Of a stretch of 64,000 bases of DNA, positions 25,616-47,990 are shown piece after piece (positions within the stretch are counted from its first letter, which is position 1; each line of letters begins with the position of its first letter). Both the position numbers and the translations under genes were made by a program. Source of the stretch: Chloroflexota bacterium (GTDB lineage Bacteria > Chloroflexota > Anaerolineae > Aggregatilineales > Phototrophicaceae); the NCBI GenBank assembly GCA_020161935.1, contig JAIUNI010000013.1, positions 1-64,000 on the forward strand, read 5' to 3'. The notes beneath the pieces were generated by a model. It was not told the origin of the DNA and ran no database searches. It saw nothing but the letters and a program-made list of their open reading frames with translations.

Positions 25616-27679
25616 ATGAAGAAGCGGTTTATCGGCGTGGGTATCGCCCTGCTGGCGGTGGTAGCGTTCTTGATCGGTGGGACGGTGATGCGGGCGCAGG
25701 ACACGACACCGACTGCCTTTATTGGCGACCCACATTACCCTGCACCAGCGTTCCCAACGGGTGTGGATTGGCTGAACGTGGAAAAGCCTCTAACGGTGGA
25801 AAGCCTGCGGGGCAAGGTGGTGGTACTGGACTTCTGGACGTACGGGTGCATCAACTGTATCCACATGATCCCGACGTTGGAGCAGCTTGAAGCGAAGTAC
25901 GGTGACGCGCTGGCGGTCATCGGGGTGCATTCGGCGAAGTTCGCGAACGAGGGCGAGACGACCAACATCCGGCAGGTGGTGGAACGCTACGGCCTAAAGC
26001 ATCCCGTGATTAACGATAAAGATTTTACCGTTTGGGGCGCGTATTCGGCCTACGGGGTGAACGCTTGGCCGACGTTTGTGGTGATCGACCCACGCGGGAA
26101 CCTGTTCGCGGTACAGGCGGGGGAAATCCCGTTTGAGGCGTTTGATGAGGTGATCGGTGGGATGATCGCGACGTTCGACGGCTTCAACGAGATTGACCGG
26201 AACCCGATGCCCATCAAACTTGAGAGCGAAACCTCCCCTTCCTCGACGCTGGCGTTCCCCGGTAAGGTGACGGTGGACAGCGAAGGTGGGCGGTTATTCA
26301 TCGCGGACAGCAGCCATAACCGGCTGGTGGTGGCTGACCTGAACACCTACGAAGTGCTGGACGTGATCGGCACGGGGGCGGCAGGGCTGACCGACGGCGG
26401 CTACGATGAGGCGACGTTTAGCAAGCCGCAGGGGATGGCCTTCAAGGACGGTATTCTTTACGTGGCGGACACCGATAACCATGTAATCCGCGCCGTGAAC
26501 GTGGACGACAAGACGGTCAGCACGGTGGCGGGAACGGGCGTACAGGGTTATGACCGCACGGGTGGGACACTATTGGCGACTGACCTCAGCAGCCCGTGGG
26601 ACGTAACGTTTGACGACGCGAATAACCTATATATCGCGATGGCTGGCACGCACCAGATTTGGATGCTGTCCTTCGATAACGACACGGTCATGCCGGTGGT
26701 GGGCAGCGGACGCGAGGGCTTGCTCAATGGCGACCTGATGGATTCGCAACTGGCACAGCCGAGCGGCCTTTACTGGTACAACAACGTGCTTTACTTTGCC
26801 GACTCCGAGTCGAGCAGCGTTCGGGCAGCGGACTTTAACACGAACAAGGTGATTACCCTAGCAGGGCCGGACATGAACGACCTGTTCACCTTCGGCGATG
26901 TGGACGGGCGGCTGGGCGAGTCGCGGCTCCAGCACACGCTGGCGGTGGTCGGTGATGACGACGGGACCCTGTACGTAGCCGATACGTATAACAGCAAGAT
27001 CAAGCGGCTTGACCCGCAGGCCAAGCAGATACGGACGCTGTTCGGGTTGGGCGGGAACGGCGGCTTCCGCGACGGTGATAAGGCCGACGCACAGTTCGAC
27101 GAGCCGGGTGGATTGGCATACGCCGACGGCAAGCTGTATGTGGCGGACACGAACAACGACGCGATCCGCGTGATTGACCTGACGGCGGGAACGGTCAATA
27201 CGATTCACTTCCCGAACCCGGAAGCCCTGCAAATCGAGGGCGCGGTGACAGTAGTCGGCGGCAACGCGGCGGCTGGCGAAACACTGGCTATTGACGCGCA
27301 GACGGTCGGCGCGGGCAGCGGTGAAATCAGCCTGAACGTAACGCTGCCGGAAGGCTACAAGCTGAACGGCATCGCCCCGTTTACGGCGGAATGGTCATCC
27401 AGCGGCGAGGCGGTGAGCTTTGCCGAGGGTGGCGCGGTTCAGAGTATCGTCGCGCCGGAACTGCCGCTGGTCGTTCCGGTGACGCTGGCAGAGGGCGAGG
27501 CGACGGTGACAGGCAGCCTGACGATTTACTACTGCGAGGCGGTCAACGAGAGCCTGTGCTTTATCGACCGCGTGACGGTGAGCCTTCCGGTGACGGTCAC
27601 AGCAGATGCGGCGACCACGACATTGACTGCCGAGCGGGTGATTGTGCCGCCGGAGGTGACGGTCGGCGGATTTAGCTAG
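25616..27679 (+). CDS. Exported thioredoxin-NHL repeat fusion protein
   Basis: A 687-residue protein. Signal peptide at 1-27. A TlpA/ResA-like thioredoxin domain occupies about 38-180, with the redox pair CINC (Cys78, Cys81) in FWTYGCINC and a cis-Pro in AWPTFVV. An NHL six-bladed propeller fills about 200-530, with repeated LYVADTxNxxIR segments. A C-terminal beta domain follows (about 540-680). The order thioredoxin-NHL matches the animal NHLRC2 architecture. It probably acts outside the membrane in thiol-disulfide exchange. The start has gagg upstream; a strong terminator follows at 27772. Confidence 0.92.
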   Translation: MKKRFIGVGIALLAVVAFLIGGTVMRAQDTTPTAFIGDPHYPAPAFPTGVDWLNVEKPLTVESLRGKVVVLDFWTYGCINCIHMIPTLEQLEAKYGDALAVIGVHSAKFANEGETTNIRQVVERYGLKHPVINDKDFTVWGAYSAYGVNAWPTFVVIDPRGNLFAVQAGEIPFEAFDEVIGGMIATFDGFNEIDRNPMPIKLESETSPSSTLAFPGKVTVDSEGGRLFIADSSHNRLVVADLNTYEVLDVIGTGAAGLTDGGYDEATFSKPQGMAFKDGILYVADTDNHVIRAVNVDDKTVSTVAGTGVQGYDRTGGTLLATDLSSPWDVTFDDANNLYIAMAGTHQIWMLSFDNDTVMPVVGSGREGLLNGDLMDSQLAQPSGLYWYNNVLYFADSESSSVRAADFNTNKVITLAGPDMNDLFTFGDVDGRLGESRLQHTLAVVGDDDGTLYVADTYNSKIKRLDPQAKQIRTLFGLGGNGGFRDGDKADAQFDEPGGLAYADGKLYVADTNNDAIRVIDLTAGTVNTIHFPNPEALQIEGAVTVVGGNAAAGETLAIDAQTVGAGSGEISLNVTLPEGYKLNGIAPFTAEWSSSGEAVSFAEGGAVQSIVAPELPLVVPVTLAEGEATVTGSLTIYYCEAVNESLCFIDRVTVSLPVTVTADAATTTLTAERVIVPPEVTVGGFS

Positions 27680-27771: not shown

Positions 27772-27801
27772 AAAGCGGTGGGCGAAAGTTCACCGCTTTT
27801 T
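27772..27801 (+). terminator. Terminator of the thioredoxin-NHL gene
   Basis: aaagcggtg pairs with caccgcttttt around a 10-nt loop and ends in a T tract. A very similar terminator stands at 47304-47332, and both are followed by ttgattcgg. Confidence 0.85.
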
Positions 27802-28009
27802 GATTCGGTCTACAGAGCGTTGGCCGGTACCCAAAGCGTGGCTGTTTCCATCGCTGGAGGCTAAAGCCGTCCAGCTAACCGCCAGACAAGTCCACTAAAG
27901 GGACTTCAAAGACAAGTATTTGGCAGGTAGCCTATCAAAATTTGATGTTCGTTCGTCAATCTTCGCCTAAGTGATTATCAAACTAGCACCGGACAAGTAA
28001 AGATCGCAA

Positions 28010-28140
28010 ATGTTCAAAATATTGCAAAAATTGCAGTTGTGATTCTCAACTTTCGCAACATTTCTCCCTCAAGTGATGCTGTTGATGCTGTTGTTACAAC
28101 ATCGATTTGTGGCGGCAGTGGCGGCGGCGGAGCGCCAATT
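28010..28140 (+). repeat. GGC-rich core intergenic element, copy 2
   Basis: An A/T-rich stretch (aaaattgcagttg, ttcgcaacattt) is followed by gttgatgctgttg, a GGC-rich run and ggagcgccaatt. The same order occurs at 59866-60001 and, inverted, at 460-671. Confidence 0.7.
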
Positions 28141-28255
28141 ATCAGTCGATAGTCTTTAGTCCACAGTCATTAGCTTAAGGCAAAGGCGAATACGAGTCGC
28201 CAAGTGCGCCAAGAAAGGCAGAGAGCGCCAAGCGGATGCTGTTGTTAAGGTGCGG

Positions 28256-28345
28256 CGGGAAACCCCATCCCCAGCCCACATCAGCACGTTCGCAGGCTCA
28301 CTCCGCTGATAGCCCGTAGTAACAAGGAAGGGAGCAAGATGCGTT
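28256..28345 (+). repeat. Dispersed gctcactcc-type repeat, copy 1
   Basis: Contains ccccatccccagcccacatc, cgcaggctcactccgctgat and gtagtaacaaggaaggga. An inverted copy occurs at 43092-43175, and a partial one at 31243-31312. Confidence 0.7.
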
Positions 28346-28383
28346 CGCTCCTGTAAATAGGGTAGCAGAGTTTGAAAGCGAAA

Positions 28384-28575
28384 GGGTGAACATTTGCCAG
28401 AACATTTGGTCACTTTTAAGCGGTGTTGGCGTTAACCTTTTGAGGGAGCAGGATTGTTAAGGACGTTGGTGGATAGTTGGTAAATGGTTTGTGGCACAAA
28501 CCCAATTCAAACGTAGGAAATAATAGTTTGAAGTTTCAAGTGGCAAGTTTCAAGTGAAAGACAGAGCAGGGTTTG
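28384..28575 (+). repeat. 190-bp intergenic block, copy 1
   Basis: Starts gggtgaacatttgccagaac and ends in heptamer-phased caag repeats. The second copy is at 47809-47990; most of the length aligns with scattered substitutions and small indels. Confidence 0.8.
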
Positions 28576-28654: not shown

Positions 28655-29534
28655 TTGACCGAGTTAACAAACCCTTCGTCACCTCATACCGAATCACCAT
28701 TTGAACGCATTCGGCAGACTGATCCCGACGGTTATGAATTCTGGTCAGCACGCGACCTTATGCCCGCGCTTGAATATACTAAATGGCAGAACTTCAAAAC
28801 TGTTCTTATCAAGGCTCAGATCGCTTGCGAGAACAGCGGAAATGACCCAGATAACCATTTTACCGATGCCAGTAAAATGGTCGCGATAGGTTCAGATTCG
28901 AAACGCGAAGTCGAGGATATGCACCTCTCGCGTTATGCCTGTTATCTCATCGTGCAAAATGCTGATCCTACTAAAGAAGTCGTTGCAATTGGGCAGACTT
29001 ATTTTGCAGTACAAACCCGTCGACAAGAGATGGCGGATGCTGATGCACTGACTGAATTGAGTGAAGATCAGCGGCGTTTACTGCTGCGCCAACGTATCAA
29101 GGTTCAGAATACTGATCTGGCATCAACGGCAAAAACAGCCGGTGTGATCACTGCACTAGATTTTGCTGTTTTTCAAAACCACGGTTATCGCGGTTTATAT
29201 AATGGGCTGACTGCGGATGCGATTCACCGTCGCAAACGGTTAAAGAAAAGTCAACACATTCTCGATCATATGGGAGCAACCGAACTTGCTGCCAACCTCT
29301 TTCGCAGCACACAAGCGGAAGATAAATTACGGCGCGATCATATTCAAGGCAAAGATACGGCAAACGAGGTTCACTACCAAGCGGGTGTAGTGTGTAGTGG
29401 TTCGTCGTGCGATTGCTGAACTCGGTGGCACCATGCCAGAAGATTTACCCACTGCTGACAGCATTAAGAAACTAGAACGTGCTGAAAAGAAACGGCTCGC
29501 TGCTCCGAAATCAAAGCGTAAGGTCGAAGAGTAA
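28655..29534 (+). pseudogene. dinD: dinD, broken by a 7-bp tandem duplication
   Basis: The reading frame encodes a DinD-like protein (Bro-N-like): FERIRQTDPDGYEFWSARDL, LSRYACYLIVQNADPTKEVV and DADALTELSEDQRRLLLRQR are family hallmarks. After YQAG the frame runs into a stop at 29417-29419. The heptamer gtgtagt stands twice in tandem at 29385-29398. Removing one copy restores VVVRRAIAELGGTMPEDLPT and on to a stop at 29534, which is the expected DinD C-terminus. TTG 28655 with ggagg at 28643-28647 is the likely start. In E. coli dinD is LexA-controlled and its product inhibits RecA activities; no LexA box is recognised here. Only the last 45 or so residues are lost, so a partly active product is conceivable. 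Confidence 0.85.
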
Positions 29535-43597: not shown

Positions 43598-45424
43598 TTG
43601 ACCCCACCAAAACAAACGTATACCTACGATATACGCAATAGTCTTTCTAAAAATCTATTTCGTGGCTTCTGGCGAATGATGACGGGTTTCCGTCACTATT
43701 ACTTTATCGCCGTGCTGATGCTGGCTGGCTCCGCGCTGATGAACACCTCGTCCTTCCTGCTCGTGCGCCACTTTGTCGATAACATCCTGCCTACAGGCGA
43801 TGTCGCGCGCCTCGCGCCGTTTGTCGGTCTGGGATTCGTGCTGCTGGCGGGCGGGCAAGGGTTGTTCAGCTTCCTCAGTGGTCGCTTCGCCTCGAAAACG
43901 GCGGAAGGCTTGGCGCTGCGCCTGCGCGATGCCATGTACGACCACATCCAGCGGTTGAGCTTTACCTACCACGACAACATGCAAACCGGTGAGCTGCTGT
44001 CCCGCGCCACCTCGGACTTGGATGCCATCCGCCGCTTCTTCTCGGAGCAGGCCATCGGTGTCGGTCGTATCTTGCTGCTGTTTACCATCAACTTCATCGC
44101 CATCGCCTTCCTGAATATACAATTGGCGTTGATCTCGATTATCGTGGTGCCGTTCATCGCGGGCTTGTCGTTCTTCTTCTTCGGGCGCATCTCGCGCCTG
44201 TACGAACACCTGCAAGAGCAGGAAGCGAAGGTCGCCACCACCCTGCAAGAGAACCTGAGTGGTGTGCGCGTCGTCAAGGCGTTCAACCGTCAGGACTACG
44301 AACGGGTGAAGTTCGACAAAGAAATTTTTGAACACTACCGGCGCGGTCGCGGCTTTTTGGTTATGCACGCGCTGTTCTGGCCGCTCAGTGACGTGCTGGT
44401 GTTCGGGCAGATCATCGGCGGTTACTTCGTCGGTGCGACGCTGGTCATCAACGGAACGCTGTCAATCGGTTCGTACTTAGCTTACGTCAGCTTGCTCGGC
44501 CAGTTGATTAACCCGATGCGTAACCTCGGTCGCTTGATCGTCGATATGTCCACCGGTGTCGTCTCGTACAAGCGCATGATGGAAGTCATCGGTCAAGAGC
44601 AGGAATCGCTGGTTGATGGCAGCCACAAGCCGGATGGCGACCTGCACGGCGACATCGTATTCAAGGATGTCAGCTTCCAGTACAACGCCGATACACCTGT
44701 GCTATATGACGTGGATTTCTCGGTGAAGGCCGGTCAAAGTGTCGCGCTGCTCGGCTCGACGGGTTCGGGTAAAACCTCCGTCGTCAGCCTCATCCCGCGC
44801 TTCTACGACTACACGTCCGGCAGCATCACCATCGACGGCATCGAACTCCGCGACATTCCGCGCGGCTACCTGCGGGGTCAGGTCGGCGTGGTCGAGCAGG
44901 AACCGTTCCTGTTCTCCCGCACCATCCGCGACAACATCACCTTCAGCGTCAGCCGCGAGGTGAGCGAGGAAGAAGTGATCGCCGCCGCGAAGGCCGCTGC
45001 CGTCCACGATGTCATCATGACCTTCCCCGACGGCTACAACACGCTCGTCGGTGAACGCGGTGTCACGCTCTCCGGTGGTCAAAAGCAGCGTGTCGTTTTG
45101 GCGCGCGCCCTGCTAAAGAACCCGCGCATCCTCATCTTGGATGACGCGACTTCCTCGGTTGACAGCGAAACCGAAGATGAAATTCGTCAGGCGCTGCTCC
45201 GGTTGATGAAGGGACGTACGTCGTTCATCATCGCCCACCGCATCCAGACGGTGATGCACGCCGATCTCATTCTGGTGTTCGACAAAGGACGGATTGTTCA
45301 GCGCGGTAATCATAACCAACTGATGCGCGAAGAAGGCATCTACCGTCAAATCTTTGACCTACAGTCCCGCATTGATGAAGAAGTGGAAAAGGAGGCGACT
45401 GATGTCCTCGGACTTCCAGTTTGA
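43598..45424 (+). CDS. Heterodimeric ABC exporter, degenerate-site subunit
   Basis: A 608-residue half transporter (type IV exporter fold): six membrane helices in residues 30-320, then an NBD with Walker A STGSGKTS (about 388-395), signature TLSGGQKQR, Walker B ILILDDATSS and the switch His in IIAHRI. The residue after Walker B is Asp, not the catalytic Glu, as in the TM287-type subunit of heterodimeric exporters. It pairs with the following subunit, whose start it overlaps by 23 bp. It starts at TTG 43598, with ggagg 7 bp upstream. The substrate is unknown; drugs or lipids are likely. Confidence 0.93.
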   Translation: MTPPKQTYTYDIRNSLSKNLFRGFWRMMTGFRHYYFIAVLMLAGSALMNTSSFLLVRHFVDNILPTGDVARLAPFVGLGFVLLAGGQGLFSFLSGRFASKTAEGLALRLRDAMYDHIQRLSFTYHDNMQTGELLSRATSDLDAIRRFFSEQAIGVGRILLLFTINFIAIAFLNIQLALISIIVVPFIAGLSFFFFGRISRLYEHLQEQEAKVATTLQENLSGVRVVKAFNRQDYERVKFDKEIFEHYRRGRGFLVMHALFWPLSDVLVFGQIIGGYFVGATLVINGTLSIGSYLAYVSLLGQLINPMRNLGRLIVDMSTGVVSYKRMMEVIGQEQESLVDGSHKPDGDLHGDIVFKDVSFQYNADTPVLYDVDFSVKAGQSVALLGSTGSGKTSVVSLIPRFYDYTSGSITIDGIELRDIPRGYLRGQVGVVEQEPFLFSRTIRDNITFSVSREVSEEEVIAAAKAAAVHDVIMTFPDGYNTLVGERGVTLSGGQKQRVVLARALLKNPRILILDDATSSVDSETEDEIRQALLRLMKGRTSFIIAHRIQTVMHADLILVFDKGRIVQRGNHNQLMREEGIYRQIFDLQSRIDEEVEKEATDVLGLPV

Positions 45425-47270
45425 AGAAGAAGATTTTTCCGATAATAGGGTCAATACCAACACCCTCATTCGTATCCTCGGTGCGGCGCGTCCGCACTGG
45501 CGTACCGTTGCCGGTTTCTTGTTTTGTACGATGGTCGTCTCCGTGTTGGAAGGTGTGTTCACCATCCTCAGCAAGCGTATTGTTGATGAGGGTATCCTTG
45601 CCAAGAACACCACCGCCGTGGTGCAAACGCTCGAAGTGTATGGTGTCATCGCGGCCATCTTCGCCGTGATGGTGTTCGGCTTCATCTACCTCGCCGGTAC
45701 GTTGGGTCAGCGTGTGCGTTACGATCTGCGTAAGCTGGTGTTCGACCACCTGCAAACGCTGTCGTTCTCATACTTCGACAAGACCCCCGTTGGCTGGTTG
45801 ATGTCGCGCGTCACCTCCGATACCGAGCGTATGTCCGACCTTGTGACGTGGGGTATGCTCGACGTGACGTGGGCGGTGATGAACATCTGTACCGCGCTGT
45901 TCTTCATGGCGACCATCAATTGGAAGCTCATGTTGATCGTGCTGGTCATGATCCCGATTCTGCTCTACGTGGCGATGTGGTTCAAGAACAAAATCTTGGT
46001 CGAGTACCGCGCCACCCGTAAACTGAACAGCCGCATCACCGCCACCTACAACGAGAACATCACCGGTGTGCGGGTGGTCAAGGCCATGCGCCGCGAGGAA
46101 GCCAACCGCCGCGATTTCGATACCCTCGCCGAAGAAATGTACCGCCGCTCGTTCCGTGCCGCGTGGCTCAGTGCGCTGTTCCTGCCAGCCGTGCAGGTCC
46201 TCAGCGCCCTCGCCATCGGTGCGATCATCTGGTACGGCGGCTTGCAGGTGAACCTCGGTGAGATGACCATCGGCGGGATGATGGCCTTCATCTCGTACGT
46301 CACCTTTATGATGTGGCCGGTGCAGGATTTGGCGCGTGTTTATTCGGAAATGCAGCAGGCCGTCGCCAGCGCCGAACGCTTCTTCTCGTTGATGGATACC
46401 AATTCCGAACTGGTGAACAAACCCGGTGCGACCGACCCCGGTACCATGCGCGGTGACATCGAGTTCGAGAACGTGAACTTCTACTACCAGCCGGAAAAGC
46501 CGGTGTTGAAAGACTTCAACCTCAAGGTGCGGCAGGGTGAAACCATCGCGCTCGTCGGGCCAACCGGCGGTGGTAAGAGTACGACCGTGAACCTGATCTG
46601 CCGCTTCTACGAACCCAAGACCGGCACCATCAAGATCAACGGCAAGGACTATACCGACTACACGCTGGAAAGCATTCACTCGCGCCTCGGTGTCGTGCTG
46701 CAAACCCCGCACTTGTTCAGCGGTACTATCCGCGAGAACCTGCGCTACGGGCGTTTGGACGCGACCGATGCCGAGATCGAAGAAGCCGCCAAGCTCGGTG
46801 GCGCACACGACTTCATCATGGCGTTGGAAAAGGGCTACGAGGAGCAGGTCGGTGAGGGCGGTGTCTTGCTCTCGACCGGACAGAAACAGCTTATCAGCCT
46901 CGCCCGCGCCGTGCTGGCGAAGCCCGACATCTTCGTGATGGACGAGGCCACGTCAAGCGTCGATACGCTGACCGAAGCGCTCATCCAGCGCGGCATGGAA
47001 CTGCTGATGAAGAACAGCACCAGCTTCATCATCGCCCACCGTTTGTCGACCATTCGCCGCGCCGACCGTATCCTCGTCATCGAGAACGGTGGCATCAGCG
47101 AAATGGGCAGCCACGCTGAACTCATGCGCCTACAGGGACACTACTACAACCTGTATATGCAGCAGTTCCGCGAGGAACTCACCGCCCAGTTGGACCCGTT
47201 CGCGGCCAGCGAACACCACACCGGCGGCACCGGCAAGGTTCCGGCGCAGGTCATCGCTGCGGGGGACTGA
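45402..47270 (+). CDS. Heterodimeric ABC exporter, catalytic subunit
   Basis: A 622-residue half transporter: an acidic N-terminal tail, six membrane helices (about 40-330), and an NBD with Walker A GPTGGGKST (about 386-394), Walker B FVMDEATSS with the catalytic Glu, and switch His in IIAHRL. Its signature is LSTGQKQ in place of LSGGQ, which completes the pattern: one canonical and one degenerate ATP site in the dimer. The aaaggagg site lies inside the end of the upstream gene. A strong terminator follows at 47304. Confidence 0.93.
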   Translation: MSSDFQFEEEDFSDNRVNTNTLIRILGAARPHWRTVAGFLFCTMVVSVLEGVFTILSKRIVDEGILAKNTTAVVQTLEVYGVIAAIFAVMVFGFIYLAGTLGQRVRYDLRKLVFDHLQTLSFSYFDKTPVGWLMSRVTSDTERMSDLVTWGMLDVTWAVMNICTALFFMATINWKLMLIVLVMIPILLYVAMWFKNKILVEYRATRKLNSRITATYNENITGVRVVKAMRREEANRRDFDTLAEEMYRRSFRAAWLSALFLPAVQVLSALAIGAIIWYGGLQVNLGEMTIGGMMAFISYVTFMMWPVQDLARVYSEMQQAVASAERFFSLMDTNSELVNKPGATDPGTMRGDIEFENVNFYYQPEKPVLKDFNLKVRQGETIALVGPTGGGKSTTVNLICRFYEPKTGTIKINGKDYTDYTLESIHSRLGVVLQTPHLFSGTIRENLRYGRLDATDAEIEEAAKLGGAHDFIMALEKGYEEQVGEGGVLLSTGQKQLISLARAVLAKPDIFVMDEATSSVDTLTEALIQRGMELLMKNSTSFIIAHRLSTIRRADRILVIENGGISEMGSHAELMRLQGHYYNLYMQQFREELTAQLDPFAASEHHTGGTGKVPAQVIAAGD

Positions 47271-47303: not shown

Positions 47304-47332
47304 AAGCGGTGAGGCACAAACTCACCGCTTTT
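47304..47332 (+). terminator. Terminator of the ABC exporter operon
   Basis: aagcggtgag pairs perfectly with ctcaccgctt around a 7-base loop, then tt. It is closely similar to the terminator at 27772-27801. Confidence 0.88.
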
Positions 47333-47424
47333 GATTCGGAAAATTCTGCCCTAAAGGACTTCCTTCGGTCGCAAATTCGTCAAATTCCGAATCTGATTTC
47401 TTGCAGTTTCCGAAGTTTCCTCCT

Positions 47425-47520
47425 TCAATGTTGAAAAAAATGCAAATGTCGTCAGTGTCGTCAGTGTCACAACTGTCAGTTGGTAATTTGGCGGCGGCGG
47501 CGGCGGCAGAGCGCCATTTT
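47425..47520 (+). repeat. GGC-rich core intergenic element, copy 3
   Basis: gttgaaaaaaatgcaa, then gtcgtcagt in tandem, a GGC run and agagcgccatttt. The gttgatgctgttg motif of the other copies is missing. Confidence 0.6.
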
Positions 47521-47808
47521 AGTTTTCAGTTGACAGTTATCAGTTGATAGTTAAAGACAACCCAAATCTCGTGCAGGTAATTGTTTTATTGCAGCGGCGG
47601 AAGGATAGTTCGCTGCTGCAACGTTTGCTGCAAAAGGCAGTCTTTAGTCTGTAGTCTTTAGTCGACAGTCATTAGTCAAAAACGAAGGCAAAAGACAAGG
47701 CGGATGTGGTTGTTAAGGTGCGTGTGGTTGGGAGTAGCTTGAGGGTTTGTCAGCATTAAACCGCTACAGCCGAGCCTTTTTCTATTGTATGCAAAGTGAT
47801 GATATTTA

Positions 47809-47990
47809 GGGTGAACATTTGTCAGAACATTTGGTCACTTTTAACGGGTGTTGGCACTAACTTTTTAGGAGAGAAAACGCAGGTTGAGGTTGGTGGAAGG
47901 TTAGAAAACGGTTTGCCGACAAACCTAATTCAAACGTAAGTAATAATAGTTTGAAGTCATAAGTGGTAAGTTACAAGGTGAATGCAAAGC
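47809..47990 (+). repeat. 190-bp intergenic block, copy 2
   Basis: Starts gggtgaacatttgtcagaac and continues through ggtcacttttaa, aattcaaacgtaa and aataatagtttgaagt, matching 28384-28575. Confidence 0.8.

Follow-up and report, generated by a model that had tools for sequence, protein, structure and literature searches.

A dispersed intergenic block of a Chloroflexota genome as the probable promoter of a GTA-like, domesticated-phage regulon

The 64,000-nucleotide stretch of Chloroflexota DNA analysed here (the window) carries, some 20 kb apart, two look-alike segments (27772-28575 and 47304-47990), which raise the question of what kind of unit a genome would keep in duplicate between its genes. 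An initial annotation had described both as non-coding, colinear and too similar for chance, and had proposed a mobile or functional RNA-type unit. BLASTN recovered the shared blocks in the same order: 27773-27808 against 47304-47339 (84%; terminator end and TTGATTCGG), 28110-28140 against 47489-47519 (87%; GGC core), 28144-28173 against 47646-47675 (90%; heptamers), 28232-28254 against 47700-47722 (91%; GGTTGTTAAGGTGCG) and, as the main match, 28383-28558 against 47808-47982 (80% over 179 bp, E=1e-39). The 20-bp motif ACATTTGNCAGAACATTTGG occurs twice in the window at up to three mismatches and in none of 100 shuffles. A coding mosaic was rejected, no gene being called in it by our simple home-made hexamer model and stop-free runs being just slightly above those of shuffles. 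The description as a colinear, non-coding and functional-looking unit thus held, also in view of the about 90 genomic copies described below. The features to which the text refers are the following.

25616-27679, plus strand: gene left of copy 1, thioredoxin/NHL protein (Pfam); its orthologues in the related genomes G010 and G004 also have the conserved block downstream
27772-27808, no strand assigned: the upstream gene's terminator hairpin together with TTGATTCGG, probably the left boundary of the unit (BLASTN, copy comparison)
27800-28352, minus strand: predicted non-coding transcribed mosaic, copy 1 (GTTGTTAAGGTGCG, GCCAAG and heptamer repeats, GGC core; directional modules)
28331-28351, minus strand: hairpin GGAGCGAACGCATCTTGCTCC at the predicted transcript 5' end, copy 1
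28359-28364, minus strand: -10 hexamer TACCCT (TANNNT), copy 1, 17-bp spacer; start predicted from the spacing at about 28352
28382-28387, minus strand: -35-like ACCCTT, copy 1 (ACCC conserved, alignment columns 39-42)
28388-28411, minus strand: P1 motif, copy 1, two tandem 12-bp boxes (GAACATTTGCCA GAACATTTGGTC on the plus strand), about -36 to -59 of the leftward promoter
28382-28542, minus strand: conserved block (CORE), copy 1, promoter and upstream elements (nhmmer, 48-copy alignment, 158 bits, E=8e-47)
45354-47270, plus strand: gene left of copy 2, ABC transporter; CORE also downstream in the relatives G003 and G001, empty site in G004
47330-47777, minus strand: predicted non-coding transcribed mosaic, copy 2 (BLASTN, directional modules)
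47784-47789, minus strand: -10 hexamer TACAAT, copy 2, 17-bp spacer; predicted start at about 47777
47807-47812, minus strand: -35-like ACCCTA, copy 2
47813-47836, minus strand: P1 motif, copy 2 (motif search)
47807-47965, minus strand: CORE, copy 2 (nhmmer, 144 bits, E=2e-42)

The product of the gene to the right of copy 1 (28655-29419) has a Bro-N domain, which is frequent in phages.

A constant block with a variable left part

The window belongs to a 7.6-Mb MAG (G000; 96.7% complete, estimated contamination 7.6%). The search for further copies suggested by the initial annotation returned 87 matches to the 24-bp P1 motif at up to two mismatches (52 plus, 35 minus) and none to the reversed control, so that the two segments belong to a family of about 90 members in their own genome; copy counts depend on dialect-specific patterns and some derive from best matches, as in the own-genome searches with each window block, where the best 40 of 123-170 candidates were taken both times. 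In an alignment of 48 copies, positions 4-37 (GGGTGAACATTTGTCAGAACATTTGGTCACTTTT) are nearly invariant and the remainder is about 74-78% identical. Contig C17 and the greater part of C6, together 853 kb of contiguous sequence, contained 19 CORE copies, 16 long and 3 truncated, all scoring at least 85 bits with the next hit at 14; decayed copies between these two scores were not seen there. All 19 are intergenic, lying in 19 of the 56 intergenic regions of at least 700 bp, in none of the 567 shorter ones and in no divergent region, and the gene upstream of CORE runs in the same direction in 15 of them. To the left, the modules GTCGTCAGTGTC, GATGCTGTTG, TTTTATTTGCAGCGG, GGTTGTTAAGGTGCG and the heptamers keep a fixed orientation and hardly occur in intergenic regions without CORE. 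Copies differ in their left ends and in the modules that they contain, no constant left end appearing among those compared, and unrelated hairpins occupy the same slot beside the promoter. Hence, of the parts originally taken as shared, only the right-hand block is constant, whereas the GGC, heptamer and 'terminator' parts make up a variable mosaic in which TTGATTCGG is one optional module, present in some copies. The intergenic regions of C6 and C17 also hold abundant separate palindromic repeats (GTAGGGACGCGA.., GTAGGGACAGCAGACAGG..) and CCCTCACCCC..GAGGGGAG hairpins, in many CORE copies at about -60 to -100. Among other candidate identities, an integron attC-like site was rejected because the core motifs do not fit, and a phage or plasmid origin of the repeat because phage, plasmid and IMG/VR collections gave no matches.

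A sequence model of CORE detected 26-92 copies in each of six further congeners, covering part of one genus; 44 genomes from other genera gave none. Two relatives used for comparison are JAPUDW01 (G010) and JAFLCH01 (G011, Anaerolineae bacterium UWPOB_ANAER3); the former is labelled 'Bacteroidetes bacterium MAG9' yet belongs by kinship to the same genus as the window, and is probably mislabelled. The P1 motif, a 24-bp double repeat, is near-invariant within a genome and different between species, the dialects being GAACATTTGTCAGAACATTTGG in G000, GACCATTTGGAAGAACATTTGG in G010 and G011, GTTACMWTTTGGAAGAACATTTTG in G003 and G004, and GAACTTTTGGTAAACTTTTTGG in G013. Genes flanking the copies of G010, G004, G003 and G011 lead to G000 loci that mostly bear the block in the same place and direction, window copy 1 included; this G000 sample is enriched for block-bearing loci, and in the unbiased 853 kb about 5/7 are shared. 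At several loci the alignment between species continues unbroken from the block into the next gene. A greater likeness of orthologous copies was looked for and rejected (mean 0.738 for G010, with about 0.735 between copies that are not orthologous), and each motif difference is common to all copies of a species; together, these two observations suggest, at the level of sequence, that the species differences arose by concerted change across all copies. Departures from the conserved positions are the empty site in G004, downstream of the orthologue of the ABC transporter gene, and one intergenic region in which CORE has opposite orientations in G010 (L191) and G000 (L053).

One alternative, in line with the word 'mobile' in the initial annotation, is that the family is a non-autonomous repeat or an interspersed mosaic of the MITE, REP or BIME kind, with a chance promoter and spread by some transposase or by recombination. 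The roughly 90 dispersed intergenic copies, the mosaic left part with its exchangeable hairpins, the empty site, the flipped block and the restriction to part of one genus are what such an element would leave behind, but species with 70-98% protein identity retain the positions, spacer and CORE align without a break into the next gene, no decayed copies were seen in the 853 kb, the motif is near-invariant with species-wide dialects and no linked transposase was found. We therefore consider mobility as possible but doubtful, and the earlier term 'mobile' as poorly supported by a family that holds its orthologous positions and shows no decayed copies, one empty site and one flipped block notwithstanding. 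Dispersed intergenic modular mosaics of species-specific sequence, located mostly at gene 3' ends, are well known as the BIME/REP sequences of enterobacteria. The present family has all these traits in common with them; in contrast, its constant part would be a promoter common to phage genes, its positions are largely orthologous and no link to a RAYT-type transposase was found.

Promoter anatomy of the block

Read on the minus strand, the constant block presents P1, ACCCTT, 17 bp and a -10 hexamer of the form TATNCT, in this order. Of 121 copies taken from eight genomes, 103 have a TANNNT hexamer at precisely the 17-bp distance from ACCCTT, with a background of 0.0095 per position, and in a gapped alignment T1, A2 and T6 of the -10 are 100% conserved while most of the spacer is variable; since the copies are homologous, this conservation is not fully independent evidence for a promoter. 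P1 would occupy the position of an activator site (two tandem 12-bp boxes at about -36 to -59) and is near-invariant in 57 G000 copies. From the -10 hexamers at 28364-28359 and 47789-47784, a transcript would start near 28352 and 47777, respectively, and run left through the mosaic, which extends 0.4-0.9 kb beyond the promoter; on the firing side, the next gene follows at a narrowly distributed distance (median about 600 bp). The -35 element ACCCTT departs from the sigma-70 consensus, and the CORE sites were not picked up by a generic promoter scan. The promoter reading also does not account for the half of the block on the right, from -75 to -190. This half (28425-28542 and 47850-47965) holds GCTAAC, TTTTGAGGGAG, TTGTTAAG and GGTTGG repeats upstream of the promoter, and these repeats are conserved at portal genes too.

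If the block is a promoter firing leftward, any RNA of the unit would be the mosaic segment on the minus strand. In this form the earlier proposal of a functional RNA may survive, but the conserved block itself is not a covarying RNA: the structure prediction on an alignment that had been suggested as a check was carried out with RNAalifold and mutual information and yielded no compensatory pairs. These data bear on a further alternative, in which the plus strand of the block would be a structured regulatory RNA or a 3'-UTR element of the upstream gene. The co-directional upstream gene in 15/19 copies, the hairpin inside P1 and the alternative 3' hairpins would agree with it; against them stand the lack of any pair changed compensatorily on both sides, column couplings of which the strongest are species-diagnostic rather than base-pairing, the lack of an Rfam match and the fact that in several genomes the block is on the side of phage genes that is not transcribed, which together make this explanation very improbable. 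Neither gathering nor permissive Rfam thresholds gave anything meaningful for the block, membership of an RNA family was accordingly rejected, and no tRNA was found. A special folding of the mosaic was likewise rejected, its z-scores equalling those of control intergenic DNA, and the hairpin at the predicted 5' end of copy 1 is by itself not commoner than in shuffles, other copies having different hairpins in its place.

Phage-type genes behind the promoter

The unrelated genes upstream of the two segments, to which the initial annotation had drawn attention, are not the partners of the block; the informative partners are scattered phage structural genes with the same promoter. Congeners that have very few copies are the most telling here. 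In G008 we found three copies, at capsid, portal and connector genes, all amid ordinary host genes; in G016 (CALAJK01, uncultured Anaerolineae) copies were found at capsid and portal genes, again among ordinary host genes; and one copy in G013 adjoins a terminase pair. In all these cases the phage gene starts left of the block and runs away from it. Gene identities were assigned by Pfam (Phage_capsid, Phage_portal, Terminase_6) and PHROGs (head, terminase, adaptor, tail), the capsid being a protease-capsid fusion in a single gene. Whenever one of 180 distinct copies has the start of a protein gene within 460 bp on its firing side, that gene is phage-type; these are five portal, five capsid, two connector and two terminase-small-like HTH genes. 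Single-copy orthologues are present in 17/17 congeners for portal and capsid and in 16/17 for terminase and connector. A divergent block precedes the portal gene in 10 and the capsid gene in 8 of these 17 genomes, among them G000. In G000 the phage genes are spread over separate contigs (C25, C17, C14) with host genes between capsid and connector, the copy nearest to the terminase is 2.3 kb off and the connector has no close copy. A sample of the order (151 genomes, 61 genera) gave a capsid orthologue in 105 genomes and 36 genera. Pairwise capsid identities correlate with those of an ABC transporter of the host (r=0.96, 66 pairs), as expected from vertical inheritance; the correlation is weaker for the portal (r=0.68).

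Two side observations concern these genes. The capsid leader (L349, L348, L343, L342), about 200 nt from promoter to gene, is well conserved between species (GTCCACACGCG..TATCCC..TGGTGCAG..CCGTTCGCCCG..GCGCGG) and has no Rfam match. On the basis of search matches alone, G000:C28:73086-98450 carries a second portal and a protease homologue together with a LexA-like HTH gene, close to each other, perhaps a true prophage separate from the scattered set.

The sequence of P1 offers a hint on its ancestry. The box GAAC-N4-GTTC lies between -35 and -10 in 16/16 lexA promoters that could be read in the genus. Six genomes have exact boxes of this kind at the portal promoter, and capsid promoters, both in the genus and outside it, bear related boxes that read TAGCAC-N4-GTTC in the orientation of the block. 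P1 itself resembles a tandem of LexA-type boxes that has drifted. In G007 the box at the P1 place is still exact, whereas none of 121 orphan copies, that is, copies with no protein gene behind them, has an exact SOS box, both window copies included, so that membership of the SOS (LexA) regulon does not extend to the orphans; these sequences support a common origin, not present-day LexA binding.

A GTA-like regulon and its orphan promoters

Copy number, promoter anatomy, association with phage genes, conserved positions and species dialects are established by the sequences themselves. We conclude, with a probability of about 0.8, that the block is the minus-strand promoter of a GTA-like or domesticated-phage regulon that has spread to some 85 further intergenic places. 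The proposed promoter would consist of P1, with boxes related to GAAC-N4-GTTC at the activator position, followed by ACCCTT, a 17-bp spacer and TATNCT, and the regulon of a scattered, vertically inherited caudovirus-type set: the protease-capsid fusion, the portal, the head-tail connector and the terminase operon. In this species and its close relatives the promoter would have spread to about 85 more intergenic sites, where the orphan copies, without a protein gene behind them, would transcribe the 0.4-0.9 kb mosaic back toward the 3' end of the neighbouring gene. We further propose that a dedicated, co-evolving regulator binds P1, that activation is tied to DNA damage, that particles are made from the phage-type gene set, and that orphan transcription has a role of its own, most likely, on the sequences at hand, as co-regulated non-coding transcription or as a buffer of the regulator. 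The retention of both P1 and the -10 in the orphans argues more for transcription than for binding only.

The same orphans weigh on an explanation in which P1 provides DNA sites for the particle system, marking packaging or replication starts across the chromosome, with the promoter at phage genes being secondary. Tandem direct repeats with species dialects, genome-wide dispersal and co-occurrence with terminase genes would suit such sites, yet a pure binding site has no need of the -10 and the 17-bp spacing that the orphans conserve, and the gaps between copies along the chromosome are near-random (CV of about 1, from an incomplete position list), a regular spacing being rejected on this basis. 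We hold this explanation to be unlikely. It is tempting to go beyond the promoter itself and to imagine a conserved, scattered GTA system in an order of the Anaerolineae, with a dedicated promoter that occupies about 90 sites in one clade, the sites changing together with the regulator and the orphans taking part by titration, as a co-expressed set of ncRNAs or by marking DNA for amplification or packaging; we advance this wider scenario only tentatively.

GTAs are defined by caudovirus-derived proteins and the encapsidation of random host DNA, and are endogenised, often at several loci (PMC9662315); RcGTA, whose genes are distributed among five loci (PMC9662315, PMC10883770), is activated by a dedicated regulator, GafA (PMC6363796). 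In the genus studied here, Pfam and PHROGs identify caudovirus-derived proteins, and scattered single genes present in 16-17 of 17 congeners and tracking a host gene (r=0.96) indicate an endogenised, multi-locus and vertically inherited set. As the system is known here from its genes alone, we call it GTA-like. The set shares with RcGTA, CcGTA and BaGTA the caudovirus-derived head genes, the endogenous and vertical condition and the several chromosomal loci, those systems being under host regulators and this one displaying LexA-type boxes. It differs in its Chloroflexota host, in being read from genes rather than from particles and packaging, in head genes that mostly form single-gene loci, each with its own copy of one promoter, in LexA-type boxes placed directly at portal promoters and in the about 85 orphan promoter copies. 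The literature searched contained no report of a GTA in Chloroflexota, which is no proof of absence.

To our knowledge, the orphan promoter copies have no counterpart elsewhere. Repeated phage promoters and mycobacteriophage stoperators likewise consist of one short asymmetric intergenic motif tied to a phage regulator; unlike these, the present motif occurs in about 90 copies over a host chromosome and not within a phage genome, and its exact form was not found in IMG/VR. With the LexA/SOS regulon there is the likeness of the exact GAAC-N4-GTTC at portal promoters, as in lexA promoters, but P1 has drifted to asymmetric tandem boxes and the orphans lack an exact SOS box.

An intergenic repeat could thus serve as a marker for a virus-derived gene set conserved across a Chloroflexota order, and the common promoter as a handle to find the remaining regulon and its regulator. 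The some 85 orphans, in orthologous places and with a motif that changes in step in each species, would be an unusual case in which sites all over a genome co-evolve with a trans-acting factor. Should particles exist, the system would bear on horizontal gene transfer in abundant uncultured bacteria.
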